A stretch of DNA of 44,431 nucleotides from NCBI GenBank assembly GCA_012960245.1, contig DUBO01000051.1, positions 1 to 44,431 of the forward strand, given 5' to 3'. Both the position numbers and the translations under genes were made by a program. The notes beneath the pieces are model-generated. The model was not told the DNA's origin. It searched no databases and was given only the letters and a program-made list of their open reading frames with translations. Every line of letters starts with the position of its first letter. Position 1 is the first letter of the stretch. This DNA is from Candidatus Binatota bacterium. GTDB taxonomy: Bacteria; Desulfobacterota; Binatia; UBA1149. Positions 4,399 through 30,378 of this stretch are shown piece by piece.

Positions 4399-4412
4399 TA
4401 GAACGTGTTCTA
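4399..4412. promoter_or_regulatory. TetR-type operator TAGAACGTGTTCTA (KstR-like), copy 1
   Basis: TAGAAC and GTTCTA form a 6-bp inverted repeat around GT in the divergent interval between two acyl-CoA dehydrogenase genes, 8 bp before the ATG at 4421. The sequence fits the published KstR consensus TnnAACnnGTTnnA at every fixed position. An identical 14-mer recurs at 30365-30378. KstR is known from actinobacteria, so the name denotes motif similarity only. Confidence 0.75.
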
Positions 4413-4420
4413 GTCGGGCG

Positions 4421-5611
4421 ATGGACTTCAATGACAGCCCGCTGGAGGCGGCATTTCGGGCCGATGCGAGTGCTTTCCTGGCTGAAAACGCTGCCGCCCA
4501 GGAGGGTGCCAACACCGGCCCCGACGCCGACCACGAGGCAGTGGTGGCCGCATCAAGGCGCTGGCAGCGCCTGCTGGCCGACGCTGGCTGGGGCGCGATC
4601 ATGTGGCCCCAACAGTACGGCGGCCGCGGCCTGGGCCCCATTGAGCAGGTGGTGTGGAACGAGGAGCTCGCGCGCGTTGGCATCACCGAAACATCGCTGA
4701 TGGGCGGCATAGCGATGGCCGGACCCACCATTATTGCTTACGGCAACGACGAGCAGAAAAGCCGTTTTCTCGAACCGACACTCAGGGGCGAGCTCATGTG
4801 GTGCCAGCTCTTCAGCGAACCCTCCGCGGGCAGTGACCTGGCCGGCCTGCGTACCCGTGCAGAGCGCGACGGGGACCAGTGGGTCATCAACGGTCAGAAA
4901 GTATGGTCGACCTTTGCCGACCACGCCGACTGGGGATTCATTATTGCGCGTACCGACCCCTCGCTGCCCAAGCGCAAGGGCCTCAGCTATTTTCTCGTCG
5001 ACATGAAAACGCCCGGCATAGAGGTACGCCCTTTGCGCGACATGAGCGGTGGCGCTCACTTCAACGAAGTTTTTCTCGACGACGTGCGCGTACCCGATTC
5101 CAACCGCCTGGGCGAACAGGGGCAGGGCTGGCCGATAGCCCGTACCACGCTGTTGCACGAGCGCATGTCGATAGGCTCGGCCTCGCGCATGTTCAGCTTT
5201 GACGAGGTGCTGGCCCATTTGCGCGAGAATATTCCCGCGCCCGACCAGTTGTTGCGCGACCGCCTCGCGGGGCTCTACGCGTGGTCGCGCAGTCTCGAGC
5301 TGCTCAACGCGCGCGTAAACACCAAGCTCGGCCGCGGCCAAGATCCCACGGCCGAGGCGTCGGTCATGAAACTGGCGATCGCCGAAATTTTTGAACAAGC
5401 GGCCGACGTCATGATGCGAGCCGAGGGCAGGGCGGCGCTCACGGGCGAGGGCGAAGCCCAGCACCGTTTTTATTTTGCCCCTGGCCTGCGTATTGGCGGC
5501 GGCACCGACGAAGTGCAGCGCAACATAATCGCCGAGCAGGTGCTCGGCCTGCCGCGCGAAGAAGACCCGTGGGCCGACACACCCTTCGAGGATCTACCGG
5601 CCGGATCATGA
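4421..5611 (+). CDS. acyl-CoA dehydrogenase, first member of a tandem pair
   Basis: This 396-residue ACAD has the segment CQLFSEPSAGSDLAGL, then WVINGQKVWST and a C-terminal GLRIGGGTDEVQRNIIAEQ. That last signature is shared with the FadE26/FadE29-type subunits of actinobacterial sterol side-chain dehydrogenases. The usual catalytic-glutamate segment before it (GRAALTGEGEAQ) is not canonical, as in those subunits, which work as heteromers. An upstream in-frame extension to 4373 would run across the operator; ATG 4421 gives the typical MDFNDSPLEAAFRA start. It is followed by a second, different ACAD 19 bp downstream. The two probably form one alpha/beta complex (inference). Confidence 0.9.
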   Translation: MDFNDSPLEAAFRADASAFLAENAAAQEGANTGPDADHEAVVAASRRWQRLLADAGWGAIMWPQQYGGRGLGPIEQVVWNEELARVGITETSLMGGIAMAGPTIIAYGNDEQKSRFLEPTLRGELMWCQLFSEPSAGSDLAGLRTRAERDGDQWVINGQKVWSTFADHADWGFIIARTDPSLPKRKGLSYFLVDMKTPGIEVRPLRDMSGGAHFNEVFLDDVRVPDSNRLGEQGQGWPIARTTLLHERMSIGSASRMFSFDEVLAHLRENIPAPDQLLRDRLAGLYAWSRSLELLNARVNTKLGRGQDPTAEASVMKLAIAEIFEQAADVMMRAEGRAALTGEGEAQHRFYFAPGLRIGGGTDEVQRNIIAEQVLGLPREEDPWADTPFEDLPAGS

Positions 5612-5630
5612 GCGCCTGGAATGCAGCAGG

Positions 5631-6755
5631 ATGAACTTCGGTTTCAGCGAAGAGCAGGAGCAGTTCCGCGAGATCGTACGACGCTTTGCCGGGCAGCGTT
5701 GGTCGCTCGAAGGAGTGAGCACACTGGCGGGTGCAGACGACGGCGAAGTCTACGACAGAAAGGCCTGGCAACAGGCGAGCGCCGAGCTGGGTCTTGCAGG
5801 GCTGCTCGTGCCCGAGCGACTCGGCGGCGCGGGTTTCGGCTATCTCGAAATGGGCATCGCGCTCGAAGAACTCGGCCGGCAACTGGCGGGCGGTCCGCTC
5901 TGGACCTCGGCCTGCCTGGCAACGGGCTTGCTGCTGGAGCTGGCCGACGAAGACGCCCAGTCCGAGCTGCTGCCACCCTTGGCGGCGGGTAAACAGCTGG
6001 CCACGGTCGATGTGGCGGGTTACCTGGCGGTGGCCGACGGTAAACTGCCGACGCTCAAGGCTCGGCCGGGCGAGGCCGGTGGCTGGCAGATCGACGGCAG
6101 CTGCGCGCACGTTCCCTTCGCGGCCCAATCCGACCTGCTGTTGCTGTGGGCCGATCACGAAGGCGACGCCGTTTTGTTTGCAGTCGCGTCAGACGCCCGG
6201 GGCTTGACGATCAAGCAGACCAGCAGCCTTGACCTGACCCGCTCGGTGGGTGACCTGGCCTTGTCTGCTGTTCCCGCGCGGCACCTGGCCGTGGCCAGTG
6301 GCCAGGAGTCAACCGCGCGGGCGCTCAACCGCGCGCGCGCGGCGATGACCGCCGAGCAGGTCGGCGCAGCCGGGGCGTGCCAGGAGCAGGCCATCGCCTG
6401 GGCCAAGGAGCGCATGCAGTTTTCGCGCACCATCGGCAGCTTCCAGGCGGTAAAGCATAGACTGGCCGATGGCCGCCTGTACCTGGAGCTCGCCCGCTCG
6501 GCGGCCTACTGGGCATGGTGGGCTGCCGACGAGGATGCCGCCGAACTTGTCGAGGCCGCGCCCATGGCCAGGTCGATGTGCTGCGATGCTTTTGCGCGAA
6601 CGGCTGCTGATCTCATCCACCTGCACGGTGGGATGGGCTTTACCTGGGAGCATTCTGCTCACCACTACTACAGGCGCGCTCGTTCCCAGTCGGTGCTGCT
6701 CGGCGACGCTCAGCAGGAACGGCAACGCCTGGCCGACAGCCTACTGGCCGGGTAA
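5631..6755 (+). CDS. acyl-CoA dehydrogenase, second member of a tandem pair
   Basis: This 374-residue ACAD starts MNFGFSEEQEQFREIVRRFA and ends with a LIHLHGGMGFTWEHSAHHYY segment. The Glu in GFTWEH (residue 340) aligns with the catalytic base of ordinary ACADs. The middle is degenerate compared with its neighbour: the usual TEPxAGSD flavin segment is not recognisable. The pairing of one subunit keeping the flavin-site motif with another keeping the TWEH glutamate fits the known alpha2beta2 ACADs of sterol catabolism. The last codons and stop are part of a 14-bp tandem repeat. An 8-codon ORF (5608-5634) bridges the two ACAD genes through ATGA overlaps. Confidence 0.88.
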   Translation: MNFGFSEEQEQFREIVRRFAGQRWSLEGVSTLAGADDGEVYDRKAWQQASAELGLAGLLVPERLGGAGFGYLEMGIALEELGRQLAGGPLWTSACLATGLLLELADEDAQSELLPPLAAGKQLATVDVAGYLAVADGKLPTLKARPGEAGGWQIDGSCAHVPFAAQSDLLLLWADHEGDAVLFAVASDARGLTIKQTSSLDLTRSVGDLALSAVPARHLAVASGQESTARALNRARAAMTAEQVGAAGACQEQAIAWAKERMQFSRTIGSFQAVKHRLADGRLYLELARSAAYWAWWAADEDAAELVEAAPMARSMCCDAFARTAADLIHLHGGMGFTWEHSAHHYYRRARSQSVLLGDAQQERQRLADSLLAG

Positions 6756-6795
6756 ACCTGGCCGGGTAAGCCTGGCCGGGTAAGCCTGGCCGGGG
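6744..6795. repeat. 14-bp tandem repeat at the end of the ACAD gene
   Basis: The unit CTGGCCGGGTAAGC occurs at 6744 (with AC at its end), 6758 and 6772, with a partial CTGGCCGGGG at 6786, so about 3.7 copies. The first copy contains the stop codon of the upstream gene (GCC GGG TAA). The following copies fill the gap to the convergent VOC gene. It looks like slippage or duplication of the gene end. Confidence 0.9.
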
Positions 6796-6800
6796 CGCAG

Positions 6801-7247
6801 TCAGACCGGCATCTGGAGTATTTCGATGACCAGCGGATCGCCGTCGCGTTCGAGGTAACTGAAGGCCGTGGTTTCGTCGAGGTGCTTGCTCCATACCGAC
6901 GCGTAGCCCAGCTCTGCCAGCAGGGCTACGGTGGCGTCGTGGTCTTCGACGCGGTAGCGCAGGTGGTGCATGCCCTCGCCACCCCCGGCCAGGAACTCCG
7001 CGTGCGGGCTCTCGCCTTCGACGGGCTGTATGAACTCGATCTCGAGGGGGCCGCTGTGACCAAATGCAATGCGCAGCCGGCAGTCAGCCTTACGGCCATG
7101 AAAATCAGCGCCGCTGACTTCGGCGTCCATGAAGGTAAACGGGCCGTACAGTGCCTCGTAACGGGCCACGGCCTGGTCGAGGTCGCTCACCACGAAGCCC
7201 ACCTGGTCTATCGGCGGCAGGGCTGGTGTGTTGGCGGACTTGCTCAT
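6801..7247 (-). CDS. VOC-superfamily protein (glyoxalase/methylmalonyl-CoA epimerase-like)
   Basis: This 148-residue single-module vicinal-oxygen-chelate protein starts with IDQVGFVVSDLDQAVARYEALYGPF, the canonical first strand-helix of the fold. A later HHLRYRVEDHDATVALLAELGY segment and a C-terminal GDPLVIEILQ carry the typical His/Glu metal ligands. The family includes glyoxalase I, methylmalonyl-CoA epimerase and extradiol dioxygenases; the closest form here is the epimerase-like group, and the substrate is unknown. Its ATG overlaps the TGA of the SDR gene by 4 bp (ATGA), indicating translational coupling. It is the last gene of a six-gene operon. Confidence 0.82.
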   Translation of the reverse strand: MSKSANTPALPPIDQVGFVVSDLDQAVARYEALYGPFTFMDAEVSGADFHGRKADCRLRIAFGHSGPLEIEFIQPVEGESPHAEFLAGGGEGMHHLRYRVEDHDATVALLAELGYASVWSKHLDETTAFSYLERDGDPLVIEILQMPV

Positions 7248-8047
7248 CCCATCACCGAGTAGCCACCGTCCACGACCAGCGTGCTGCCGGTCACGAACGA
7301 GGCCTGGCTGCTGGCCAGGAACAGCGCGGCGCCGGCCACGTCGTCGGGGCGGCCCCAGCGCTCGAGTGGAGTGCGCGCGAGAACCGGCTCGTTCATCTCG
7401 GGGGTTTCTTTCACGATCGCCGTCATGCGGGTCTCTATCATGCCCGCGGCGATGGCGTTTACGCGTATGCCCTGCGGCGCCCAGGCGATGGCCAGGGTCT
7501 TGCCCAGTTGGGCCAGCCCGGCCTTGGCGGCGCCGTAGCCCGGCACCACGGCCACGCCGAAAAACGACGTCAACGAGGCGGTGTTGATGACGCTCGCGCC
7601 GGCGGCCGATCGAGCCTGGGTGCTGGAGCCCTGGTCAGCCAGCAGGGCGGCGGCCAGGGGGCTGGCGGCCAACATTTCGCGGCAGGCCGAGGCCAGGTGG
7701 AAGGCCGAGAACAAGTTTATGCTTACGGCTTCTTCGAAGACCTCGGGGTCGTACTCGTCGCGGCCCCCGGGCAGGCTCGCGCCCGCGTTGTTGCAGAGCA
7801 CATCGAGACGGTCGAGGCTCTCGGCTACCGTTACAATCTGGGCGCGATCGCGTACGTCGAGTTGCCTGTAGTCAAAGCTCGACAGGTCGTTGTCATAATC
7901 GGCGGCCGCGGCGCGGGTGCCGGTTATCACCACCGACGCGTCGGCGTCGGCAAATGCGCGGGCGATACCCAGGCCAATACCGTTGCTGCCGCCCGTTACC
8001 AGCACCCGGGTTCCGCTGTAGTCGTAGTTGGCTGTCGCGTTGGCCAC
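7244..8047 (-). CDS. short-chain dehydrogenase/reductase (SDR)
   Basis: This 267-residue classical SDR oxidises or reduces an alcohol/ketone with NAD(P). The cofactor motif TGGSNGIG is at residues 18-25, NNAG follows, then an INTASLTS serine and a YGAAK tyrosine-lysine pair. The C-terminus is PLERWGRPDDVAGAALFLAS, typical of FabG-like members. An ATG at 8146 opens a longer frame inside the upstream gene, but a GTG at 8047 has a strong GGAGGAG site 11 nt upstream and lies only 4 bp after the upstream stop. GTG is therefore preferred. The stop overlaps the VOC start. Confidence 0.9.
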   Translation of the reverse strand: MANATANYDYSGTRVLVTGGSNGIGLGIARAFADADASVVITGTRAAAADYDNDLSSFDYRQLDVRDRAQIVTVAESLDRLDVLCNNAGASLPGGRDEYDPEVFEEAVSINLFSAFHLASACREMLAASPLAAALLADQGSSTQARSAAGASVINTASLTSFFGVAVVPGYGAAKAGLAQLGKTLAIAWAPQGIRVNAIAAGMIETRMTAIVKETPEMNEPVLARTPLERWGRPDDVAGAALFLASSQASFVTGSTLVVDGGYSVMG

Positions 8048-8051
8048 TTGT

Positions 8052-9125
8052 TCAGTTCTCCTCCGGGCGGCAGTCGACAAGCACCTTGATGGCCTCGTCG
8101 GGGTCCTGGGCCGTCGCCAGTGCGCGGTCAAATTCGGCCAGTGCAAAGCGATGGCTCACCAGCGCAGAGGCGTCGACCTGTCCGGCCGCGAGCATCTCTA
8201 TCACGTCGGGAAACTCGTCCGGGTAGGCCATGGAGCCGGTAATAACGAGTTCGCGCATGAGCAGGTTGACCATGTCGACCGCCACCGGCGCCTTTTGCAG
8301 GCCGGCTACGACAACGCGCGCGCCGCTGCGGGCCTGGTGTACCACCTGGGTAAACACGCTGCCCACGCCGGTGGCCTCAACGTAGAGCTCGCTGGCCGGC
8401 ACCGGGCCGCCCATGAGCTCGGCAGCACCGTGCTGCTTGAGCAGGAAGGTCGGCAGCGAGGTCGGGTCGTCCTGGTCGGGGCAGAAAACAGTGCCACCAA
8501 GTTGCGCGGCCATGGCCAGGCGTTTGGCTGACAGGTCCACGATCACTATGTTCTCAAGGCCGAGGTGGCGCAGCACGAGCAGCGTGCACAGCCCTATGGG
8601 ACCGGCGCCCATGATGACCGCCCGGTCACCCGCCTGCGCCTTGCCTTGCCTGGCAACGTGCATGCCCACGGCCAGTGGTTCTACCAGGGCGCCTTCTTCC
8701 ATTCCGAGCGACTCGGGCAGTTTGAACAGCGAGGATTCGTTCTTCTCGGCATTGCGCACCAGGAGAAGAGGAGCAAAAGCGCCCTCCGGTCCACCGTTGC
8801 CAATGGTATTGCCGTTGGCCATGGGGTTAACGACCACTCGATCACCGTCGCGCGTGGCGCTGACCCTGTTGCCGGTTTCGACCACCACGCCCGACAGCTC
8901 GTGCCCCAGCGGCATGGGGCGGTCGCCACCGGCCATGGAGCCCATGCCTATGTAGCCGAGGTCGGAGCCGCAGATGCCGCAGTACTCAACGGCCACCACG
9001 ACGTCGTCGGGCCCGGGCGAGGGCACGGCGATACGATCGACCTGCGCGACACCGGGGCCGTGTACCTGCACGGCCGGCATGGTGGATCCAGTGTTGCTAG
9101 TGCTGGTGGAGGCCACGATCTTCAA
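8052..9125 (-). CDS. zinc-type alcohol dehydrogenase (MDR family)
   Basis: This medium-chain dehydrogenase/reductase of up to 357 residues has the catalytic zinc ligands in CGICGSD (Cys52) and LGHE (His75), and a nucleotide-binding GAGPIGL motif. It is threonine-dehydrogenase-like, but the structural-zinc lobe is absent: where the four cysteines would be, the protein reads NPMANGNTIGNGGPEGAF. The longest frame begins at a TTG (9125) overlapping the stop of the PEBP gene as TTGA. An ATG at 9080 (MPAVQVHGPG) is an equally plausible start and better fits the family N-terminus. It is embedded in the minus-strand operon between PEBP and SDR genes. Confidence 0.87.
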   Translation of the reverse strand: MKIVASTSTSNTGSTMPAVQVHGPGVAQVDRIAVPSPGPDDVVVAVEYCGICGSDLGYIGMGSMAGGDRPMPLGHELSGVVVETGNRVSATRDGDRVVVNPMANGNTIGNGGPEGAFAPLLLVRNAEKNESSLFKLPESLGMEEGALVEPLAVGMHVARQGKAQAGDRAVIMGAGPIGLCTLLVLRHLGLENIVIVDLSAKRLAMAAQLGGTVFCPDQDDPTSLPTFLLKQHGAAELMGGPVPASELYVEATGVGSVFTQVVHQARSGARVVVAGLQKAPVAVDMVNLLMRELVITGSMAYPDEFPDVIEMLAAGQVDASALVSHRFALAEFDRALATAQDPDEAIKVLVDCRPEEN

Positions 9126-9745
9126 TCCTGCGGGTCGGGGTGCAGGGAGTAAGTGGCCACTATGGAGGCCAGGTCCAGCACGTGCCCTTCCATGGCATTG
9201 ATCGCGTCGCCGCCGGTGAAGCGACTGCCCAGTTCGAGCTTTTGGATGTCCAAAGCATAAACGGTGAACACGTAGTGGTGAAGGCGTTCGTCGTTGAAGG
9301 GAGGCCAGGGTCCGTCGTATCCACCGTAATCGCCGCTCATGTCCTCGTCGTCGGCAAACCAGTTGGTGAAGTCATTGATGCCACGGCAGCCGTGGGCGGT
9401 GGGGCCGGGTTGTTTGCCCCGCGCGGTAAAGCCTTCGCCGTCTGTAGCAACGGCAAGTTCTCCCATGGACGCGGGGATGTCGACGAGCACCCAGTGATCA
9501 AAATCAACACGCGGGATGTCGTAGGGTACCGTCGCGTCGCTGCGGTTCACGAGGTCGGGGCGCGTGGGTGCGTCGCGGTCATGACAGACGATGGCCATCG
9601 ATTGAGTGCCCACCGGCAGCTCGCTCCAGGCCAGGTGGGGGCTGCGATTCGGGCCGGGCACCGGTCCATCGTCGCCGGGCACACCCGCGGCAAACTCGGG
9701 GGGCAGGGGCTGTCCGTCGTTGAATGAATCGCTGTGAATCTTCAT
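9122..9745 (-). CDS. YbhB/YbcL-type PEBP-family protein (Raf-kinase-inhibitor-like)
   Basis: The 207-residue product starts MKIHSDSFNDGQPLPPEFAAG and has the two ligand-pocket segments of bacterial PEBP proteins: SPHLAWSELPVGTQSMAIVCHDRDAP and HWVLVDIP, then a GYDGPWPP segment and HHYVFTVYALD. The family binds phosphate-like anions, and the physiological role of bacterial members is poorly known. There is no signal peptide, so it is cytoplasmic. It is tightly placed in the operon: 3 bp after the sulfotransferase stop and overlapping the dehydrogenase start. Finding it inside a catabolic operon is unusual, and a ligand-binding or modulating role is only speculation. Confidence 0.9.
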   Translation of the reverse strand: MKIHSDSFNDGQPLPPEFAAGVPGDDGPVPGPNRSPHLAWSELPVGTQSMAIVCHDRDAPTRPDLVNRSDATVPYDIPRVDFDHWVLVDIPASMGELAVATDGEGFTARGKQPGPTAHGCRGINDFTNWFADDEDMSGDYGGYDGPWPPFNDERLHHYVFTVYALDIQKLELGSRFTGGDAINAMEGHVLDLASIVATYSLHPDPQD

Positions 9746-9748
9746 TTG

Positions 9749-11047
9749 CTACTCTCCCGCGATAGTTTCTACAGGGAAGCGCGAGCTGTAGAAATCAAAA
9801 CGCTTGCGTAGCTCGTCGGGGTCGGTGCCAAAGTCGCCGGCCAGGTCGTAGAGAACGCGTCCACCGCGGTCGCGCGGGTGCCGACGGCGGTAATCGGCTA
9901 TGGCCTCCAGCGTGTCGGCGTCGAGCTCAAGGCCCGCCAGTTGGTATACCGCGGCTATAGAGCCCTCCTCGTCGGCCATGAAATCAGAAAAATGCAGGTC
10001 CATGCTGTGCGCGGGTGCGAGCAGTCCCCGGTCGCGCACGCAGGCCGCGAGCAGTTGCTCCACCCGCGCTGTCCAGTACTCCAGCAGTTCGTCTACGAGC
10101 ACGCGGCGCCGGCTGACTCTCTGCCCGTAGGCCAGCATGGTCACGGTTGATTGTATTACCGCCACCGGGTCGCGGTGGGTCACGACGACCGTCGCGTCTG
10201 GAAAGGTCCGCGTGAGCGCGGGCAACTGTTCAAGGTGCTGGGGACACTTGAGTACCCAGCGCTGCGCTGGGTCGCCGCTAGCCTGCTTGCCGCTCGCGAG
10301 ACCAGCCTGTTGGTCGCGCCAGGCCAGCAGCCTGAGCACGTTCTTCATGTAGTCATAGTGGGGTTGCTGATCATGCCCCAGGTAGTGGTCGCGCCAGCGC
10401 GGTGAGTGAGCCAACCACTCGTAGTTGTACGAGGCGAAGTCGGGGCCCATGAGTTCGAGTTCTTCGTGCACGTGGTCGGGGTTCATCGGGTGCATGGCCG
10501 CGAGGTGGGGAGTCACGGCCTGCATTCCTTCCCAGGCTTTCTCGCAACGGAACCAGCGCGGGTCGTTCTCGTCCCCGGTGGAGGGCTCACCCGGAAGCGG
10601 AAGCGGTTCGTAGGATTCCCAAAGTGGCAGCGAGCGCAGGCGTGGGTCGGCAGCCAGGGTGTTGAGCAGGTGGGTGGTGCCCGACCTGGGCAGGCCCACC
10701 ACTATGATCGGCCGTTCAATGGCTGTGTCGAGAATCTCGGGGTGCCGTGTCCAGCAATCCTGTATCAGGAGGCGACTGGTGGCGTGTTGCAGCAGCTTGT
10801 TGCGCAGCGTGAGGCGGCCGAGCGCGGTGAGCTCGTGGTCAGTACTCCACTCGTCGCAGAGCAAGCCCAGTCGCTCGATGAAATCTTCTGGTCCTAAATC
10901 GACGAGACCGGTGGTTTCGCGGGCCTGGCCCAGTATCGAGTCAATCGTCAGCTCTATGTCCAGGTTGTCGGCCCAGGCCATAGCAGCGCGCTGGGTGTCG
11001 TCGAGTTGGGGCTGCGAGAGGTCGGATATGCGGATCTCGTCGCTCAT
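9749..11047 (-). CDS. sulfotransferase family protein
   Basis: This 432-residue protein has the 5'-phosphosulfate-binding loop PIIVVGLPRSGTTHLL (GLPRSGTT at residues 118-125), and a downstream VLKCPQHLEQLPALTRTFPDATVVVTHRDP segment that fits the 3'-phosphate-binding region. Such proteins transfer sulfate from PAPS to an alcohol or amine; many bacterial members of this long (400+ residue) group are uncharacterised. A frame extension to 11281 overlaps the MBL gene; the ATG at 11047 (MSDEIRISDLS) follows the MBL stop by 16 bp and is preferred. It is paired in one operon with an alkyl-sulfatase-like MBL protein, so sulfate addition and removal may act on the same compound. Confidence 0.88.
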   Translation of the reverse strand: MSDEIRISDLSQPQLDDTQRAAMAWADNLDIELTIDSILGQARETTGLVDLGPEDFIERLGLLCDEWSTDHELTALGRLTLRNKLLQHATSRLLIQDCWTRHPEILDTAIERPIIVVGLPRSGTTHLLNTLAADPRLRSLPLWESYEPLPLPGEPSTGDENDPRWFRCEKAWEGMQAVTPHLAAMHPMNPDHVHEELELMGPDFASYNYEWLAHSPRWRDHYLGHDQQPHYDYMKNVLRLLAWRDQQAGLASGKQASGDPAQRWVLKCPQHLEQLPALTRTFPDATVVVTHRDPVAVIQSTVTMLAYGQRVSRRRVLVDELLEYWTARVEQLLAACVRDRGLLAPAHSMDLHFSDFMADEEGSIAAVYQLAGLELDADTLEAIADYRRRHPRDRGGRVLYDLAGDFGTDPDELRKRFDFYSSRFPVETIAGE

Positions 11048-11063
11048 CTTCGGCGGCTCATCT

Positions 11064-12392
11064 TCAGCTATGGCCCAGTAGACTCTGCAGGCGGGCGATT
11101 TCTTTCGCCAGCCAGCCGTCCTCCCAGAAGTTGGCGCCGGCTTTGGACACCGAGGCGCGCTCGCGCAGGGCGAGGTGTACGTCAAGCAGGAGTTGCAGCG
11201 CGGCCTTGTCGTTGTCGTCGGCAGTGTCAGCGGCGGCGGCCAGCTCTGCCAGGTGCAGCGCCGCCTCCGGGTTGCCGGCATCGAGCAGGGCGCGCCCTCG
11301 GGTGGTTATGGCGTTGACGCCGGCCAGCCCGGCCAGCTCGGCGCTCACTTCGCGGGCAGGGGTGGGGTAGAGCTCGGTGGTAGACCCCGCCTTGAACCAT
11401 CCCATGTAGCTTTCCCAGATCGTGCGCACGGCCCAGCTCACCTTGCCGTAGCCTTGGCCTATGACGACATCGTCGGGCAGGTCGACCTCTCGCATGAGGG
11501 TGGAAACGTCCTTGCCTTCGTTCATTCCCGCCAGCGTGGCGCCGTGCACGTGGTCGGCGGCGCGGTAAAGCTGGTCGAGGCTGTCGCGTATGAGTTCACG
11601 GCCGGCGATGGGCGCAAAGTGGCCGGTCACCAGCAGCTCGGGTTCAAGGCTACGCATGCGGTCGACGGCCCGCATGTAGGGCTCGAGAAAACGATAGCGG
11701 TCGCCGCGTATGGTGTTGATATTGGGAAAGTGCGGAAACAACGGGCCGACGGTATTACCGCTGAAAAGTATCCCGTGCTCGGGCAACCACACGAGGCAGC
11801 TGTCTGCGGTCTCACCGCCGGGTACGGCCAGCAGCTCGAGCTTGAGCCCACCGCAGTCGAGTTCGAGACGGTCTTCAAAAGTAATGTCGGGCTCGGGCAC
11901 ATCCTGTTCGAAGGCCGAGGGGTCCCGGGCTGCCACCTCGGTGGCGTAGTCGAACACGTGCTGAAACCAGGTGCCCGACTGGTTTACTCGCACCGTGGCG
12001 ATACGGCTGTCGTCGTGCTGGCAGGCCGCGTTGTTGGCCTGGGCGATGTAGGCCGTGTCGGCCTCGCGAAAGCGCGACACGCCGCCCAGGTGGTCCACGT
12101 GTCCCTGGGTGGTGATGATGTGCGTGGTCGGTCCGTCGCAGGCCTGGTCGAACACGCGCTTGTGCACGGGAGCCTCGAAACCCATGCCGGTGTTTATGAT
12201 CACCCGGCCCGCACTGGTCACCAGCATGTAGGAGTTCGAACACCCCTCGGACATGCAGATGAAGTCGTTGATGGGCGTGGCGGTGGTCTGCCAGGCTGGC
12301 TTCATGTCGAAGAAGGTGGGTCGGTTGGCTACCAGCTCAGCGACGCCGGCGGCGGTCGGGTTTCTTGCGGTGCTTGTATACTGGCGGCTCAT
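11064..12392 (-). CDS. MBL-fold protein of the alkyl-sulfatase type
   Basis: This 442-residue metallo-beta-lactamase-fold protein is the first gene of the operon. The metal motif reads THIITTQGHVDHLGG: Gln96 stands where the first His of HxHxDH is expected, while His98, Asp100 and His101 remain. A second region reads PGGETADSCLVWLPEHGILFSGN, without the usual His-Thr pair. The C-terminal part has YGKVSWAVRTIWESYMGWF, a hallmark of the alkyl-sulfatase dimerisation region. A role in hydrolysing a sulfate ester or a related ester is therefore likely but not certain, since two metal ligands appear altered. No signal peptide is seen. It is divergent from the M20 peptidase gene. Confidence 0.82.
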   Translation of the reverse strand: MSRQYTSTARNPTAAGVAELVANRPTFFDMKPAWQTTATPINDFICMSEGCSNSYMLVTSAGRVIINTGMGFEAPVHKRVFDQACDGPTTHIITTQGHVDHLGGVSRFREADTAYIAQANNAACQHDDSRIATVRVNQSGTWFQHVFDYATEVAARDPSAFEQDVPEPDITFEDRLELDCGGLKLELLAVPGGETADSCLVWLPEHGILFSGNTVGPLFPHFPNINTIRGDRYRFLEPYMRAVDRMRSLEPELLVTGHFAPIAGRELIRDSLDQLYRAADHVHGATLAGMNEGKDVSTLMREVDLPDDVVIGQGYGKVSWAVRTIWESYMGWFKAGSTTELYPTPAREVSAELAGLAGVNAITTRGRALLDAGNPEAALHLAELAAAADTADDNDKAALQLLLDVHLALRERASVSKAGANFWEDGWLAKEIARLQSLLGHS

Positions 12393-12501
12393 GGCTAGTG
12401 GCTTTCCTAGCGCGTGGGCTGCCTCGAGTAAAAAGGACGGCGTCTCCCCCTAGGCACGGCCCTCTGGCAGTATGCCTGCTCGGGGGTGTGATCAAACAGC
12501 T

Positions 12502-13995: not shown

Positions 13996-14005
13996 CCGGC
14001 CAGGT

Positions 14006-15371: not shown

Positions 15372-15971
15372 CTAGGTCGACCAGGCCTTTACGCCCGCGC
15401 GCATGCCCGTGTTGGTAGCCTTGACGAAGAGCGCGTCGCGCTGCGGGTCGCCAAACTCGAGCCAGTTGAGGACTGCCTCGACCAGGTAGCCTACAACCGC
15501 GTGGGCGGCCCACTTCATCGCATCGGCAGGGACACGCTCACCCAGGTTGGTGTCAGCGGCCTTGACGGCCCACTCCCGCAGCTCGGCCGCGTAGGAAGAG
15601 AAAAGTGGCTCGCGGGCGGCGTGTCTCCACAGCAGGCGGAAACCGTCGGGGTCCTGCCGGGCGGCGGCGAGCACCGAGCGAGCCCCTATCCCGAATCCAC
15701 CGGGCTCCGGTTCGGCCTGGAGCTCACCGGTGAGGCGGGTGCAGACGCGTTCCAGGACCGCGCGGTAGAGGTCTTCCTTTGAATCGAAATGTCGGTAGAC
15801 GATCAGGGGAGTGATGCCCGATTCCGTGGCGATATCGGGCATCGTGGTCGCAGCGAAACCCGCCTTCGAAAAGGCGCGGGTGGCACCGTCCAGGATCGAT
15901 TCGCGCCTTTGCTCGCGGGGCAGCCGCCGCGGACTCTCGTCGCTGGTCTCCTGGGAAGAAGTCCTTGACAT
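15372..15971 (-). CDS. TetR/AcrR family transcriptional regulator
   Basis: The 199-residue product has an N-terminal helix-turn-helix (RRESILDGATRAFSKAGFA, then TMPDIATESGITPLIVYRHF, residues about 22-62) followed by a variable alpha-helical ligand domain. A frame start at 16007 would run through the promoter palindrome; the ATG at 15971 (MSRTSSQETS) is preferred. A good minus-strand promoter (TTGTAT at 16002-16007, 18 bp, TATGAT at 15978-15983) would begin transcription at about this ATG, so the mRNA may be leaderless. It is divergent from the amidohydrolase operon, and the palindromes between them are likely its operator. It is probably autoregulated and controls the four-gene operon and perhaps the P450. 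Confidence 0.9.
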   Translation of the reverse strand: MSRTSSQETSDESPRRLPREQRRESILDGATRAFSKAGFAATTMPDIATESGITPLIVYRHFDSKEDLYRAVLERVCTRLTGELQAEPEPGGFGIGARSVLAAARQDPDGFRLLWRHAAREPLFSSYAAELREWAVKAADTNLGERVPADAMKWAAHAVVGYLVEAVLNWLEFGDPQRDALFVKATNTGMRAGVKAWST

Positions 15972-15992
15972 ATGTATATCATAGCGTATACA
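15965..15992 (+). promoter_or_regulatory. candidate sigma-70 promoter for the amidohydrolase operon
   Basis: TTGACA (15965-15970), a 16-bp spacer and TATACA (15987-15992) form a strong-looking promoter reading toward the gene at 16128. It overlaps the start of tetR and the palindrome. A second perfect -10 hexamer TATAAT is at 16021-16026, without a clear -35 partner (CTGTAT lies 17 bp upstream). Confidence 0.55.
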
Positions 15993-16006
15993 TGGGGCTG
16001 TATACA
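15972..16006. promoter_or_regulatory. palindromic operator region for the TetR regulator
   Basis: ATGTATA (15972-15978) and TATACAT (15987-15993) form a 7-bp inverted repeat with 8 bp between the arms, and TGTATACA at 15999-16006 is a perfect palindrome. GTATACA thus occurs twice, 14 bp apart. The elements overlap the promoters of both divergent transcripts, the expected place for a TetR operator. Confidence 0.65.
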
Positions 16007-16127
16007 AGCGCCATTGCCACTATAATGTGTGGGCCGGGAATTTTAGGGGCGTGAGACGGGGCTGCGTGCAGACGTTGCTGCTATAGGTAGTTGGCTGCGA
16101 CAGGGGCTACTGAGGAGAGGAGTCACG

Positions 16128-21967: not shown

Positions 21968-21991
21968 TTCTTCCTCCCGCCTTCCGGCCAC

Positions 21992-22099: not shown

Positions 22100-22117
22100 T
22101 GCAGCGTGCTCCTGTTT

Positions 22118-23833: not shown

Positions 23834-23961
23834 CTGTTTACCCCCCCCAGGTTACCGTGACTGGCGCTTTTGCCATGTTATCGCCACTGTTGGAAGCCGG
23901 TTCGCGACGGGTTGCTGGAGGACACTGTTCGGAGAGGAGCCCGAGGGGATGATGAGTAACC

Positions 23962-25197
23962 ATGAAAAATAACAGACCAGCGCCGCTTGCAGGCCTGCGC
24001 GTGATAGAGAGCTCCCTGTTGGGGCCGGCGGCCATTACGACGCACCTGGCCGATCTCGGCGCGGAGGTCATAAAGGTGGAGTCGCCCGCGGGCGATTACG
24101 TGCGCGAAATGACCTGGCCGATCATCAACGGAGTGTCGCTGCTGCACATGCACGTCAACCGCGGCAAGAAGAGCGTGGTGCTTGACCTTAAGGTGGCGGA
24201 GGGGGCCGAGTTGTACCGCGAACTGGTACGCGGCGCCGACGTCGTGGTGGAGGCCATGCGGCCGGGCTCGCTCGAACGGCGCGGGCTGGGCTACGAAGCC
24301 CTGCGCGAGATAAACCCGCGTATCGTTTTCTGCAACATATCGGGGTACGGGGCGACCGGCCCTTACAGCGGCCTGCCGGCCCACGGCATTGCCTTTGATA
24401 CCTGGGCGGGCATCGTCAGTCCGGAGATCGACGACGATGGCTTCTGCTTTCTACCCGAGCACGCGAGCATGGGTATGCACGCCGGGCCCCTGCTGGGGGC
24501 GCTGGGGATCCTGGCGGGGGTGCTCCGCGCGCGTGAGTCGGGTGAAGGTTGCTTGATGGAGATAGGCCAATCCGACGCGGCGGCATACATGGACTGGTAC
24601 CGCAGCGAGACCTGGATGGCCTACGATCGGCCCGAAGACGAGGTCACGGGCAACAAGGCCGACAACTACGAACGCCGCGAGCCGGGTACGGCCGGCATGA
24701 AAGAAGGCGTGCGCTACCAGGTTTACGAATCAGCCGACGGGCACGTTTTGTTGATGGCCAGCGAGCAGGCCTTCTGGAAAAATTTCTGCGAGTGCGTCGG
24801 GCGCGTGGAGCTGTTCGAGCGCTGGCCGGGGTCTAAGTTCGCCGACCATGCACGCGGCAACCGCGAGCTGCAGGCCGAGTTGCGAGACATTTTTCGTACG
24901 CGTACGAGCGCGCAGTGGATCGCCGCGGCCGACGAGCACAACTTTCCTGTTGCGCCCTGTAACACGCCGCGAACTCTGGCCGAGGATCCGCAGTTTCGCG
25001 ACAGGTTTCCGCTCTACGGCCACGAGCAGCACGGTGCCGACATGTTGCCGTTCCCGGTCAAGCTGGCAGGTGAGATGCTACCGGCGCCCGCAATGGCGCC
25101 CACCGTCGGCGAGCAGACCGACGAGGTGTTGCGCGAGCTGCTGGGCTGTGACGATGAACGCCTGGCCGCGTTGCGGGCCACCGGCGCCCTCGGCTGA
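23962..25197 (+). CDS. CaiB/BaiF family (class III) CoA-transferase
   Basis: This 411-residue class III CoA-transferase moves CoA between carboxylic acids. It shows the family opening PLAGLRVIESSLLGPAAITTHLADLGAEVIKVESP, then RGKKSVVLDLK, VVVEAMRPGSLERRGLGYE and CNISGYGATGPYSG. Members act on oxalate, carnitine, bile acids and 2-methylacyl-CoAs (racemases); the bile-acid and methylacyl branches fit a sterol-like neighbourhood, but this cannot be decided here. A short overlapping leader frame (7 codons from 23949) precedes the ATG, and the GAGGGG ribosome-like site is 14 nt away, so initiation may be modest. It ends 10 bp from the convergent ligase gene. Confidence 0.92.
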   Translation: MKNNRPAPLAGLRVIESSLLGPAAITTHLADLGAEVIKVESPAGDYVREMTWPIINGVSLLHMHVNRGKKSVVLDLKVAEGAELYRELVRGADVVVEAMRPGSLERRGLGYEALREINPRIVFCNISGYGATGPYSGLPAHGIAFDTWAGIVSPEIDDDGFCFLPEHASMGMHAGPLLGALGILAGVLRARESGEGCLMEIGQSDAAAYMDWYRSETWMAYDRPEDEVTGNKADNYERREPGTAGMKEGVRYQVYESADGHVLLMASEQAFWKNFCECVGRVELFERWPGSKFADHARGNRELQAELRDIFRTRTSAQWIAAADEHNFPVAPCNTPRTLAEDPQFRDRFPLYGHEQHGADMLPFPVKLAGEMLPAPAMAPTVGEQTDEVLRELLGCDDERLAALRATGALG

Positions 25198-25207
25198 ACA
25201 GGGGGGG

Positions 25208-26932
25208 TCAGGATTCGAGCTCGATCTTGAGCACCTTGCCGGCTGCGTTGCGGGGCAGGGGCTCGCTGCGCAGTTGCCAGAGGCTGGGCACCTTGAAGGT
25301 GGCCATGGTTTCAGCGCACCAGGCGGCCAGCTCTTCGCTGGTAGGCGTCTCGGTAGTGGCCGCGCTATCGCCCGCCGTCAACACCACGATCGCCTTGACC
25401 TCTTGTCCGAGCTCGGCGTGCTCAACGCCGATCACGGCGGCTTCTTCGACCGCCGGGTGGGCTTCGAGGCGCCGTTCAATTTCGACGGGGTAAATGTTCT
25501 CTGCGGCGCGCAGTATCAAGTCGCGAGCGCGGCTGTTGATGTACAGGCGACCGTCGAGCAGGTGGCCGATGTCGCCGGTCGCCAGCCAGCGACCCGGGTG
25601 GATGGCCTCGCGCGTGGCCTCGGGTTGTCCCCAGTACTCGAGCATTAGGTAGGGGCTGCGCACGAAGATCTCGCCGTCTTCGCCGTCGGGCAGAGCGTCG
25701 CCGCTGTCATTGCGTATTTCGACCTGCTGGGTCGGCATCACGCGGCCTACCGACAGCGGGTGGCGGGCGAGTTCGCGTCCGCCGGTCATGGTAACCGGCA
25801 CCACGGTTTCGCTGCTGCCGTAGCCCAGCCCCACGCCCTGTTCGCCGTTGGGCACAAGGTCGCGCATGCGGGCCTGGGTTTCGGGCGTGGTGGGTGCTCC
25901 ACCGCTGCCGAGGTTGCGCAGCGAGCTGAGGTCGTAGTCGTGCAGGCGGGGATGGCCGAGCACGCGCGGCGCCATGCTGCCGAGGCCAGCCCAGATCGTG
26001 ATCCGTTCCTTCTCGATCAGCCGGAGCACGTCCTCGGGGTCAAAGGCGCCCAGCCGCCATACCGTCTTTGCGCCCGCGGCCATCATCATCAAGCCGCCCG
26101 TGTACAGGCCCGACATGTGAAACAGCGGAACGGTCATCAGCGCGCAGGTAGCCGGAGGATCGCTTTCGCCGGGTATCCCTTCTTCGGCGGCCAGCATGAC
26201 GTTGCGAAAGCCGTGCAGCATTGAGTTGCTCAGAAAACCGCACACGCCGCGGTGGGTGTTTACGGCACCCTTGGAGCGACCGGTGGTACCGCTGGTGAAG
26301 AGGATTATGGCGGGGTCGTCTTCGGCTATGGGAGTTTCAGGCAGGCCGACGTCGGGCGCGTAGTTGACCAGTTGCTCGAAGTCGGTCTCGATCTTGATCG
26401 TAGCGATGCCGGGAGCAGCGGCCAGGGCGTCGCCCAGGCGGTCGAGTCGTTTTTCGTCGGCCACCAGGACTCGCGGCGTGGTGAGTTCCAGTGAGTGTCG
26501 TATTTCTTCGGATTTCCACCAGCCGTTGAGCGCCGACACGACCGCGCCCAGGCTCACCGTGGCCCAGAAGGTGACCAGCCACTCGGGATGATTCTCGGCG
26601 AGGATGGCCACTCGGTCGCCGGGCCTGATCTTGTACTCGTCCCTGAGCGCGGCAGCCGTCGAGCACACCATGCGGTAGTGCTCGGCGTAGCTGATACGGC
26701 GGTCGCCCGAGACAATGTATTCTGCGTCGCCGTGCAGGGCCGAGTCGGCCAGTACTTCCCTGAGCGAACGCTTGCGGCCGGCGAACACCTGCATGCGTTG
26801 GCCGAGGACTTCTTCCTCGACGACGTCGAAGCCACCGCCGGGGGCGATGAGTTGCGCGGTTATCTTGTCAAAAGCGTCCATCAGGGGTGTGCTCGGTCGA
26901 GAAGCCGTGCTTTTTCTGTAGTTGGAACGCAT
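25208..26932 (-). CDS. AMP-forming acyl-CoA ligase (class I adenylate-forming)
   Basis: This 574-residue ANL enzyme has the phosphate loop LFTSGTTGRSKG (about 211-222), then VGLGYGSSETV, WLATGDIGHLLDGRLYINSRARD, and the C-terminal catalytic Lys566 in LPRNAAGKVLK. It would activate a carboxylic acid to acyl-CoA. ATG 26932 lies 6 bp after the DUF3604 stop; an ATG at 26881 (MDAFDKI) is an alternative, and neither has a well-placed ribosome site, so re-initiation after the upstream stop is likely. It is the last gene of the operon controlled from the operator at 30365-30378. It differs clearly from the ligase at 651-2282, so two acids or two pathway steps are likely. Confidence 0.9.
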   Translation of the reverse strand: MRSNYRKSTASRPSTPLMDAFDKITAQLIAPGGGFDVVEEEVLGQRMQVFAGRKRSLREVLADSALHGDAEYIVSGDRRISYAEHYRMVCSTAAALRDEYKIRPGDRVAILAENHPEWLVTFWATVSLGAVVSALNGWWKSEEIRHSLELTTPRVLVADEKRLDRLGDALAAAPGIATIKIETDFEQLVNYAPDVGLPETPIAEDDPAIILFTSGTTGRSKGAVNTHRGVCGFLSNSMLHGFRNVMLAAEEGIPGESDPPATCALMTVPLFHMSGLYTGGLMMMAAGAKTVWRLGAFDPEDVLRLIEKERITIWAGLGSMAPRVLGHPRLHDYDLSSLRNLGSGGAPTTPETQARMRDLVPNGEQGVGLGYGSSETVVPVTMTGGRELARHPLSVGRVMPTQQVEIRNDSGDALPDGEDGEIFVRSPYLMLEYWGQPEATREAIHPGRWLATGDIGHLLDGRLYINSRARDLILRAAENIYPVEIERRLEAHPAVEEAAVIGVEHAELGQEVKAIVVLTAGDSAATTETPTSEELAAWCAETMATFKVPSLWQLRSEPLPRNAAGKVLKIELES

Positions 26933-26938
26933 CCCCCT

Positions 26939-29191
26939 TCAGCGCAAGTAGATAGGCGATGACCAGGCCCGCGGCTCGGCCGTTGCCAGGCAATCCTCCT
27001 CGTTGGGCGTACGGAAATCCGCGCCCCAACAGGGGTCCACCTCCTCGCAGTTGCCGCCGTCGTCGTACTTGCAGCGCAGGGCGTCGGCGTTGACCGTGGG
27101 AGTGGCGCGCTCGATGGCGCGTACGTAGTACACGTGTTCGCGATCGCTGCGAGCCTGCTCGGGGTCGTCGAACTCCACCGTGCAGCCGTTGCCGTCCGCG
27201 GGGCAGGGCAGTATCTTCCACGGGTCTTCGATGAGCTCGGCCAGGGAGTCATCTTGTGCCTCCGCGAGATTGCCGGGACGGCGCGCACGCACGCGCACTA
27301 CTTCTATGCGCTCGATGGGGCGCCTTCGGTCAGTGGGGTTGTAGCACTCACCCCGGCACAGGCGCTCGAGCCTTGCGGGAGACAGGCCCTGCTCGGAGTG
27401 CTCGGGGCAGCCCTGCTCCTGCTCCAGCGAGCCAGCGGCTCGCACCCTGAAACGCGGTGTTCCGGTCATGTCGGCCTCGCCGCCCATGGCGAGTTCGCCG
27501 TCGGGGCCGTTCAGGAGGTCAAACCACAGCAGTATGCGCGGCCCGCTGGTGCCGTAGACCTCGCGTCGTTTCATGGCCTGCCAGATCGAATCGCGGTCGC
27601 GGCCGCCGGAGTGCACGGCCACCAAGCCTCCGGTGACAAAAAATGAAGCTACTCGCTCGGCTTCCAGGGCGAGCATGGGGTTGGCCATGACCGCGTCGGT
27701 GGCAACGAAGGGCTGGGATTCCCCATTGTCGGCAGCTTTTTCTCCGCGCAGAACGTTGTAAGTGAAGCGGCTGTGTACGCCGCGGGCCTCGGTCATCTGG
27801 TAGCGTGCGTACTCCTTGTAGCCGGTACCGGGGCGCGCAGAGTGGTTGTCGCTCGAAGCCATGAAGCCAAAGCGAAAGCGGCGCGCGTCGCCGTCCGCCT
27901 CGTTGCCGGTCAGTGCCAGCGTGTACTGAGCAGAGTTGCGCGGCCGGTAGTTGAAGGACGGGAGAAAACAGTCGCGGCATTGGCCGCAGTCGAGCCAGGC
28001 TTCGGGCTCGGCCCAGGGTAACGTCAGGTGACCCTGCTGGCCGGCCTCGAGATGGTTGGTCTGGGCTTCGGTAACCAGCTGCTCACAACTCGCCGAGTCG
28101 GGATTTTCACAGCGTTCGCGCACAAGCTGGCCAGCCCGCCGGCAGCAGGGAAGGTAGTTTTCTGTCGCCTCGGGGCAAACAGCACCGTTGTCGCCAGCAA
28201 CACCGTCCTCGCGCCAGTCTCGGTACTCTTCGGAGTTGCCATGTCCGGAAAACACCTCCAGCAGGATCTGCCTCTCGGGGTCGTGCTGCGCGCCCTTCAA
28301 CTGCTTGTCGAACGATGAGCCCGGCGGTGTGTACACTCCCCAGGCCGTGCCGTGCGGAATGACTATGGATTCGTGTCCCCACTGGGCGAGTTTTTCGAAC
28401 AGCTCGGCGGGGTCCAGGGCGGTTTCGATGCAGTCGTTGGGGAGTTGGCGGGTGTCGATTCCTGCCTCGCAATCCGGCGTGTCCAGGAGCTCGTTCTGGT
28501 AGAAATCAAAGGAAAGAAACTGATCGAATTCATCCAGGTCGGCCAGGGGTAGCAGTAGCCGTTGCTTGAGCGGGCGCTTGTCGCCCAGCATTTTTATCAG
28601 CAGTGACCGCGCAGCTATCGGCCGCCTGGGTATGGAGTCCTCGTCGAGGTCGCGCAGGATGACATTCTTGTGTCCCCAGTGCTCCGACGGGGTCTGTCCC
28701 ACCTGCGTCCACTCCCATCCCAGGTAGGCGACAACGTCGGGATTGTCGGGATCGCCGGCCAGGGCGTTGCACTGGCGAACCGAATCCACGGTCTCTTGCC
28801 AGTGTTGCGGGGTCAGGCCCTCGGCGTGATCGTTTATGCTCCAGAAGTCGAGGCCCGAGCAGTAGCGGGCAAAATCACAGGCATCGGCTGGCGGGTGCGC
28901 GCCTTCACCTTGCATGACGGGCAGGCTGAAAGTGAACGCGTCGGGCGAAAAGGTGGTGTGTACGTGCAGGTCGCCGAAGAGAATCTGCTTGTCGTTGCCG
29001 ACCTCAAGAGCCTGTGCGGTTTCGCGTTGCCTGGCCTGTTCGGTCTCGACAACAGTTGTCGGCAAGGCGGCGCCTTCTATGTTGCCAGGACCCTGGTGTT
29101 TGCCGCAGCCTGGCAGCATGAGCAGGGCTGCTGCGCTGAGAGCAAGAAGAACCCGTAGCGGGGTGGCCTTGAGATGAAGGCGACTATGCAT
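26939..29191 (-). CDS. DUF3604-family lipoprotein
   Basis: The 750-residue product has a lipoprotein signal peptide (RVLLALSAAALLMLPGC, acylated Cys29) and then a DUF3604 domain starting QILFGDLHVHTTFSPDAF, whose HxH motif resembles PHP-type metal-dependent phosphoesterases. Further metal-like motifs are SINDHAEG and SSDNHSARPGTGY. The biochemical role of DUF3604 proteins is not established. A long in-frame extension to 29614 is rejected: the ATG at 29191 has an AGGAGA site 9 nt upstream and the extension lacks protein character. It sits between the nitronate-monooxygenase-like gene (29 bp) and the ligase gene (6 bp), so a surface-anchored hydrolase is co-expressed with a CoA-dependent catabolic pathway. 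Confidence 0.85.
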   Translation of the reverse strand: MHSRLHLKATPLRVLLALSAAALLMLPGCGKHQGPGNIEGAALPTTVVETEQARQRETAQALEVGNDKQILFGDLHVHTTFSPDAFTFSLPVMQGEGAHPPADACDFARYCSGLDFWSINDHAEGLTPQHWQETVDSVRQCNALAGDPDNPDVVAYLGWEWTQVGQTPSEHWGHKNVILRDLDEDSIPRRPIAARSLLIKMLGDKRPLKQRLLLPLADLDEFDQFLSFDFYQNELLDTPDCEAGIDTRQLPNDCIETALDPAELFEKLAQWGHESIVIPHGTAWGVYTPPGSSFDKQLKGAQHDPERQILLEVFSGHGNSEEYRDWREDGVAGDNGAVCPEATENYLPCCRRAGQLVRERCENPDSASCEQLVTEAQTNHLEAGQQGHLTLPWAEPEAWLDCGQCRDCFLPSFNYRPRNSAQYTLALTGNEADGDARRFRFGFMASSDNHSARPGTGYKEYARYQMTEARGVHSRFTYNVLRGEKAADNGESQPFVATDAVMANPMLALEAERVASFFVTGGLVAVHSGGRDRDSIWQAMKRREVYGTSGPRILLWFDLLNGPDGELAMGGEADMTGTPRFRVRAAGSLEQEQGCPEHSEQGLSPARLERLCRGECYNPTDRRRPIERIEVVRVRARRPGNLAEAQDDSLAELIEDPWKILPCPADGNGCTVEFDDPEQARSDREHVYYVRAIERATPTVNADALRCKYDDGGNCEEVDPCWGADFRTPNEEDCLATAEPRAWSSPIYLR

Positions 29192-29220
29192 GTGTATCTT
29201 TCTCCTGCTAGTGAGTGGGT

Positions 29221-30342
29221 TCAGGCTTCGGGCATAAGTGACTGCAGGTGCTCGTAAGCGTCGATGTACTCTTCTACCAGTTGGTTGATCACCTGGCGCA
29301 CCGGGCGCACATCGTTCATGCGCCCCACGATCTGTCCCACCGGGTTGAAGGCCACCCCCTGGGCCTTCGCCGCGTAGCGGTGTACGCGGTGCACGGCATC
29401 GGCCGTAACCATCCACTGCAGCGGCATGCCCAGCGGCGCGGGGGTCTCGGGGTCTTCCCAGGCCTTGGTCCAGTCGTTCTTGAGCATGCGGCAGGGCTTG
29501 CCGGTCCAGCTTCGCGACCTGACGGTGTCCCGGGTCTGGGCATCCAGCAGGCCCTGTACCTGCTCGGGCGGGCAGGCCGACTCCGCCACCGTGAGCCACA
29601 GTGAGCCCGACCACACACCCTGCGCTCCCATGGCCAGCGCGGCAGCCACCTGCCGACCGCTGCCGATTCCGCCAGCAGCCAATACCGGTAGCGGCGCGAC
29701 GGCATCAATCACTTCGGGCCACAGCACCATGCTGCCCACGTCGCCGGTGTGTCCCCCGCCCTCGGTGCCCTGGGCGATGATGAAGTCGCAGCCTGCTTCC
29801 TTGTGCTTGAGGGCCTGGTAGGCGCTGCCGCACAGCGCTCCCACCAGCAGGCCGGCGTCCTGTATCTCCTTGATGACTTCGGCCGGGGGCGTGCCCAGCG
29901 CGTTGGCTATGAGTTTGACCTTCTTGTGCTTGAGCGCGGTTTCTACCTGCGGGCCGGCCGTCAGCTGCGTCCATCCGAGTAGCTCTTTAGCTTTTTCGCC
30001 TTCGGGCAGTGGCGGTACTCCGTGTTCGTCGAGTACGCGCGAGGCGAAGTCGCGGTGCTCCTGCGGCACCTGGGCGGCGAGCAAGGCCTGCAGCTTGTCG
30101 AGGTCGGTTTCTTCCATGCCCTCGTATTTGCCGGGGATGACGATGTCCACGCCGTAGGGGTTGTCACCCACGTGTTCGTCTATCCACTGAAGCTCGGCTT
30201 CGAGTTCTTCTACCGAAAATCCTACGGCACCCAGCACGCCCAGGCCGCCGGCGTTGCTGACTGCGGCCACCACGTCGCGGCAGTGTGTGAAGGCAAAAAT
30301 GGGGAATTCGATTCCAAGGCGTTGGCATAGTTCAGTTTGCAC
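29221..30342 (-). CDS. nitronate monooxygenase-like flavoprotein (NPD/IpdC type)
   Basis: This 373-residue FMN TIM-barrel protein is of the 2-nitropropane dioxygenase group. It has a CRDVVAAVSNAGGLGVLGA opening, IIAQGTEGGGHTGD with catalytic-type His198, and the FMN-phosphate segment VLAAGGIGSGRQVAAALAMGAQGVWSG. The family covers nitronate oxidases, enoyl reductases and IpdC, an enzyme of actinobacterial steroid-ring catabolism; the latter is attractive given the KstR-like operator but is only an inference. The start is GTG at 30342 with an AAAGGAGA site. The operator lies 22 bp upstream. It is the first gene of an operon with the DUF3604 lipoprotein and an acyl-CoA ligase. Confidence 0.9.
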   Translation of the reverse strand: MQTELCQRLGIEFPIFAFTHCRDVVAAVSNAGGLGVLGAVGFSVEELEAELQWIDEHVGDNPYGVDIVIPGKYEGMEETDLDKLQALLAAQVPQEHRDFASRVLDEHGVPPLPEGEKAKELLGWTQLTAGPQVETALKHKKVKLIANALGTPPAEVIKEIQDAGLLVGALCGSAYQALKHKEAGCDFIIAQGTEGGGHTGDVGSMVLWPEVIDAVAPLPVLAAGGIGSGRQVAAALAMGAQGVWSGSLWLTVAESACPPEQVQGLLDAQTRDTVRSRSWTGKPCRMLKNDWTKAWEDPETPAPLGMPLQWMVTADAVHRVHRYAAKAQGVAFNPVGQIVGRMNDVRPVRQVINQLVEEYIDAYEHLQSLMPEA

Positions 30343-30364
30343 GGGTTTCTCCTTTGCTTAGGGG

Positions 30365-30378
30365 TAGAACGTGTTCTA
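30365..30378. promoter_or_regulatory. TetR-type operator TAGAACGTGTTCTA (KstR-like), copy 2
   Basis: This is the same 14-mer as at 4399-4412, extended here to a 16-bp inverted repeat (GTAGAAC-GT-GTTCTAC, 30364-30379). It lies in the 85-bp divergent interval between the nitronate-monooxygenase-like gene (22 bp away) and the sulfotransferase gene (49 bp away). It matches TnnAACnnGTTnnA fully. Confidence 0.78.

Follow-up and report, generated by a model that had tools for sequence, protein, structure and literature searches.

Which regulator reads two identical 14-bp palindromes in the genome of a Candidatus Binatota bacterium (class Binatia), and which pathway does it control? The stretch of DNA in question, hereafter the window, comprises 44,431 nucleotides (contig C51:1-44431) of a genome of 2.82 Mb in 60 contigs that is 96% complete, and carries the sequence TAGAACGTGTTCTA at 4399..4412 and again at 30365..30378, the coordinates at which the initial annotation had placed it. 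Among the sterol regulators of Actinobacteria, KstR is the best known, and the same annotation had likened the two copies to KstR operators. Our analyses indicate that the two 14-mers are very probably operators of a TetR repressor of the KstR type, predicted to be encoded outside the window at C60:68044-68613, and that they probably belong to a sterol regulon.

Both copies reproduce, letter for letter, the operator sequence at the Mycobacterium tuberculosis kstR promoter; a 29-bp probe from that promoter, containing the same 14-mer, is bound by KstR of that species. They are also the only two matches in the whole window to the published KstR pattern TnnAACnnGTTnnA (TNNAACNNGTTNNA), with 0.16 expected, which bears out the earlier comparison. 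At least two matches to the loose pattern TNNAACNNGTTNNA were obtained in 1 of 100 shuffles of the window, and TAGAAC is the sole half-site occurring twice among its 6+2+6 palindromes. The two predicted operators, to which no strand is assigned, lie between divergent genes, as had been proposed, once likely start codons are used. Site 1 is situated in the gap of two acyl-CoA dehydrogenase (ACAD) genes: the minus-strand gene begins with ATG at 4322, and the longest open reading frame (ORF) of the plus-strand gene opens at 4373 and would take in the operator, the in-frame ATG at 4421, 8 nt past the end of the operator, being its likely start. Site 2 separates a minus-strand gene of the nitronate monooxygenase (NMO) family, which starts with GTG at 30342 behind an AAGGAG box and 22 nt from the operator, from a plus-strand sulfotransferase-family gene; the longest ORF of the latter opens at 30371, inside the operator, and the gene must therefore begin at a later codon. 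Among close relatives, both G001 and G002 have operator 1 in the corresponding position, and G001 has operator 2 as well (G002 was covered for site 1); these recurrences say little since the genomes are ~92% identical at the window sites.

The exact operator TAGAACNNGTTCTA occurs at 4 sites genome-wide compared with none for a reversed control, and the pattern TnnAACnnGTTnnA at 23 sites compared with 9. Sites were scored with a matrix built from 12 gel-shift-positive M. tuberculosis sites, themselves scoring 18.9-25.3, over 364 kb of the genome in stretches chosen around sites. Thirteen of the genome's own sites scored 18.3-25.3, within or just under the gel-shift-positive range, and the remaining 10 of the 23 pattern sites scored 14.4 or less; dinucleotide shuffles (n=100) gave a mean of 0.17 sites scoring at least 18, with a maximum of 2. 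According to the ORF map, 12 of the 13 strong sites lie in promoter gaps, a placement that requires the longest ORF to be shortened or discarded by eye at C28:32812, C28:100530, C40:29463, C40:71340, C60:68606 and both window sites. The initial annotation had reasoned that a regulon of this kind should show operators before lipid- or sterol-catabolic genes elsewhere in the genome, and these were found; a 14-mer as frequent within coding regions as between divergent genes, which it had regarded as a refutation, was not observed for the strong sites, several of them after reassignment of start codons.

A candidate reader of these sites is encoded in the same genome. Of its 14 TetR_N matches, the protein at C60:68044-68613 scores 116.6 bits to the NCBIfam KstR model (NF033703), nine others scored alongside reach at most 41.8 bits, and at E <= 1e-12 the KstR model matched none of the remaining four. 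The best solved relatives of the C60 protein are the KstR structures 3mnl, 5cw8, 5aqc and 5ua2 (E ~1e-20, residues 6-170 of 190), followed by 3bjb at 1.4e-16. It is 33-43% identical to actinobacterial homologues and 97% and 95% identical to its counterparts in two other genomes of its family. A looser operator, TGTAACGTGTTTCA, is located at C60:68606-68619, at the start of the kstR-like gene itself. In a quick tree with long outgroup branches, 11 of the genome's 13 other TetRs stood apart from the KstR-like sequences (SH-aLRT 89) and 14 Binatia-type sequences formed one group (support 98); the actinobacterial sequences came out as one side with a support of 17 only, and the tree does not settle the branching order within KstR. 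A KstR-like gene in an Acidobacteria-labelled metagenome-assembled genome (MAG; L110) groups with the actinobacterial sequences, with no operator pattern within 400 nt upstream. Seven actinobacterial relatives, some of them partial, were compared with NF033703 as well: three pass its cut-off and four fall below it, one of these at 114.9 bits. None of the proteins of 148 genomes sampled from the class exceeds that cut-off. The expectation that the regulator would be encoded elsewhere is supported by this candidate, a distant relative of KstR that lies below the curated threshold.

Two other TetR genes were considered and rejected as the regulator. The only TetR_N match of the window (15372..16007, minus strand), already dismissed by the initial annotation, is not the KstR-like gene, its sole NCBIfam match at E <= 1e-12 being FasR (49.9 bits). 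The second (L009), a TetR at C28:90402 that lies on the opposite strand and ends a run of genes including one of the KstD type, is likewise FasR-like, with 120.1 bits to FasR and 19.1 to the KstR model.

Analysis of the class sample, in which a gene was counted as KstR-like at E <= 1e-20, links the exact operator to the regulator. KstR-like genes were detected in 19 of the 148 genomes, a count that may miss some since no more than 20 first-look candidates were scored per genome. The exact operator TAGAACNNGTTCTA is present in 10 genomes from 6 genera, every one of them among these 19, in comparison with 22 genomes for the reversed control, 1 of which is among the 19 (Fisher test for operator and KstR-like gene, 9e-11, kinship ignored). 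With the window's genome included, 13 of the class's 23 KstR-like genes have a looser operator immediately upstream, with no further match in loci of ~3.5 kb, and 10 of 13 named loci of the Binatia type have an operator within 150 nt upstream of the KstR-like gene; the two counts share some genomes and are not independent. Among 395 genomes drawn from the phylum (16 of this class), TAGAACRTGTTCTA was found in 2, both of this genus.

We compared 17 operator loci, 13 of them outside the genus. Six of these 13 adjoin orthologues (65-73% amino-acid identity) of the CaiB-like and/or NMO-family genes that flank C28:82031: at the G088 and G092 loci both genes are present, at G089 just the CaiB-like one, and at G145, G146 and G147 just the NMO-family one. 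Three of the 13 loci, in G145-G147, have the exact operator next to an orthologue of the window gene at 42086-43090. Among the other out-of-genus loci, one (G089) lies near a relative (~40%) of a C28 gene situated between two operators, one (G088) gave a weak match only and two gave no match. The longest invariant block in seven aligned gaps is the operator; these loci were chosen for the exact operator, so its invariance follows from selection, and its place beside the same genes does not.

The genes beside and downstream of the operators suggest what the regulon serves. At C40:29463, one side encodes IpdA (2.4e-88), IpdB (7.5e-61), a PRK07938 enoyl-CoA hydratase over its cut-off, which we take to be of the EchA20 type, and an NMO-family protein with a FabK-like match; the other encodes an enoyl-CoA hydratase, a KshA_C Rieske oxygenase, an Ltp2-like protein, a sulfotransferase and a PhyH protein. 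The KstR2 motif AnCAAGnnCTTGnT is not enriched in the genome (3 sites compared with 3 for the control) and is absent from the ipdAB contig C40, and on the lack of enrichment we ruled out KstR2 control of ipdAB. The operator at C40:71340 is accompanied by genes for an ACAD, Ltp2 (1.1e-159) and a thiolase, together with a second ACAD-like ORF judged by eye, and this block has counterparts of 47-61% identity near KstR in an actinobacterial MAG (L112). A GAF/sigma-54 activator gene (L069:11542-13380, minus strand) is divergent from the block, and a second layer of control there is possible. Elsewhere, a ChsH2-type OB-fold gene is found at the C60:62934 operator, 5.7 kb from that of the kstR-like gene, and a KstD-type enzyme (3-oxosteroid 1-dehydrogenase, 8.3e-175) is encoded downstream of C28:82031 in a same-strand gene run. 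C40 also carries a cytochrome P450 gene, with an ancestral CYP125 as the closest solved structure; no operator was seen beside it.

The operators and their placement, the relative of KstR with an operator at its start, the co-occurrence in the class and the gene similarities are all read from sequence; from them we infer the binding, repression, inducer, substrate and operon membership of downstream genes in the following model. When sterol catabolites are lacking, a repressor dimer would sit on each palindrome near the start codon and shut both divergent units until displaced by a CoA-thioester intermediate of sterol breakdown. The regulon would comprise side-chain beta-oxidation (heteromeric ACADs, Ltp2 and a ChsH2-type protein), ring attack (KshA and KstD type) and C/D-ring breakdown (IpdA, IpdB and EchA20 type).

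Several results weigh against a KstR-type sterol regulon. With 116.6 bits against a curated cut-off of 280, the C60 protein falls far under the threshold for KstR. With one mismatch allowed, the whole genome holds 6 operator sites and 7 for the control, so that this search taken alone gives no signal; C51:143839, a strong site (score 19.3) and probably a false positive, lies within a coding gene, and several start codons were reassigned by eye in a way that keeps sites outside ORFs. Nine of the 19 KstR-like genomes lack the exact operator, and no operator pattern precedes 10 of the 23 KstR-like genes. Only one of the four KshA_C matches in the genome, that at C40:29463, was found beside an operator. 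The best match to the HsaC model TIGR03213 is partial, at 50.5 bits against a cut-off of 366, although this model may not cover HsaC, and a general extradiol signature, perhaps too strict, gave no match in the loci scanned with it. IpdB (E <= 1e-60) was detected in 22 of the 148 genomes, split evenly between those with a KstR-like gene (11 of 19) and those without (11 of 129); 8 KstR-like genomes thus lack IpdB and 11 genomes have IpdB without a KstR-like match. Genes for C/D-ring breakdown can therefore occur in the absence of the regulator, and the regulator in theirs.

The genomes with a strong IpdB and no KstR-like match are G068-G071, G078, G081, G099, G100 and G102-G104. Conversely, G083-G087 and G092, all of the same order, have a KstR-like gene and no IpdB match; the exact operators kept in G085 and G092 suggest that the pathway under the regulon may be shorter in these genomes.

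These two genomes also lend themselves to the alternative that survives best, namely that genuine operators are bound by the KstR-like protein, with a regulon directed at some non-sterol isoprenoid or branched lipid, such as hopanoids, carotenoids or methyl-branched acids. The failure to find HsaC with the single model tried, and the operators before aldehyde dehydrogenase and hydantoinase-type genes, would fit such a role as well. We nevertheless consider it unlikely, given IpdA, IpdB, the EchA20-type hydratase, KshA_C, Ltp2 and the KstD-type enzyme at or downstream of operators. Still less probable is a mere bystander role for the KstR-like gene, with the palindrome recognised by one of the 13 other TetRs: a genome with 14 TetR genes offers other candidates, and the link to the KstR-like protein is drawn from sequence, but an operator at that gene's own start and the confinement of exact operators to genomes with a KstR-like gene both speak against it. 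Chance palindromes, which the single window shuffle with two loose matches and the lack of excess at one mismatch might suggest, are made very unlikely indeed by 13 strong sites where 0.17 are expected, by the same gene neighbours in other families and by the co-occurrence with the regulator.

The operators before aldehyde dehydrogenase and hydantoinase-type genes are strong sites on C28 (4920, 11005, 32812 and 54662; L066, L067 and L021), which precede aldehyde dehydrogenase/ACAD and hydantoinase A-/B-type genes. A putative molybdenum hydroxylase of the CoxM/S/L type, judged from N-terminal sequence only, is likewise encoded behind such a site, and this set may form a further branch of the regulon.

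Within the window, the predicted operator 1 faces the plus-strand ACAD genes for an alpha-type subunit (4421..5611; closest solved structures 4x28_A and Tcur3483) and a beta-type subunit whose middle domain is unmatched (5631..6755; Tcur3481 (6wy8_A) and 4x28_D); 4x28 and Tcur3483/Tcur3481 are heteromeric ACADs with a steroid role. On the other side, the minus-strand ACAD gene (3096..4322), first of its unit, is probably transcribed together with an enoyl-CoA hydratase gene (2287..3177, minus strand), judging from position. At operator 2, the NMO-family flavoprotein gene (29221..30342) is the divergent first gene on the minus strand; it is followed on that strand by a DUF3604-domain ORF (26939..29614), taken at its longest, overlapping the NMO gene and of uncertain start, and by a gene for an AMP-binding ligase of the acyl-CoA synthetase type (25208..26932), a putative operon member. 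The sulfotransferase-family gene (30371..31690 as the longest ORF, with its true start after operator 2) probably shares an operon with a class III aminotransferase gene (31687..33081), both on the plus strand. The list of regulon genes in the initial annotation combines the first genes adjacent to the operators with downstream genes whose membership depends on presumed operons. The plus-strand gene at 42086..43090 encodes an F420-type LLM oxidoreductase of the Rv3520c subfamily, over the subfamily cut-off, with no strong operator beside the window copy. A degraded operator-like site, TAAACCCTGTTCTA (40262-40275, score 13.1), lies ~300 nt upstream of a gene pair made up of an aldehyde dehydrogenase and the Rv3520c-type oxidoreductase. 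The Rv3520c/Rv3521 gap in M. tuberculosis is a gel-shift-positive KstR site.

The Mycobacterium KstR regulon has the same 14-bp operator, with many copies between divergent genes and one at the promoter of the regulator, and shares with the present system the ACAD-Ltp2 block and the Rv3520c subfamily, the latter through the operator in G145-G147 and not in the window's genome (Kendall 2007, PMC1995591). It differs in that the Binatia system belongs to another phylum, has a regulator that shares 33-43% identity with actinobacterial homologues and scores below the KstR cut-off, and includes additional gene types (sulfotransferases, CaiB-like and hydantoinase-like genes). The genes ipdA, ipdB and echA20 are described as controlled by KstR2 (Kendall 2010, PMC3068626; Crowe 2017, PMC5380842), whereas their counterparts here stand at a KstR-type operator and AnCAAGnnCTTGnT is not enriched. 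The inducer of KstR is given as 3-oxocholest-4-en-26-oyl-CoA (PMC8700777). EdcR of the proteobacterium Caenibius is also a TetR-type repressor and acts on a steroid pathway, but has the palindrome TnnCnnTACnAnTnGTAnnGnnA and responds to estrogen (PMC8700777). KstR homologues are absent from bile-acid-degrading Proteobacteria according to a 2021 review (PMC8399759). No report of KstR outside Actinobacteria, or of sterol catabolism in Binatota, appeared among the matches listed from the open-licence PMC literature, bioRxiv lying outside this scope. Published work describes UTPRO1 as a Binatota order and the lineage as yet uncultured (PMC8262859), and reports sponge-associated Binatia MAGs with sterol-biosynthesis gene clusters (PMC9531527).

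It is possible, and we propose it only tentatively, that one KstR-type repressor controls the whole sterol pathway, including the C/D rings, in the non-actinobacterial Binatia, with relatives in Myxococcota-labelled MAGs. Either this one-repressor plan would be older than the mycobacterial division into KstR and KstR2, or regulator and operators would have crossed phyla together, the 14-bp operator remaining letter-perfect. A regulon of the KstR type suggests that an as yet uncultured lineage degrades sterols under regulatory control. Together, operator and regulator provide a sequence handle for locating sterol genes in MAGs, and they offer a natural test of an operator that stays fixed while its repressor diverges.

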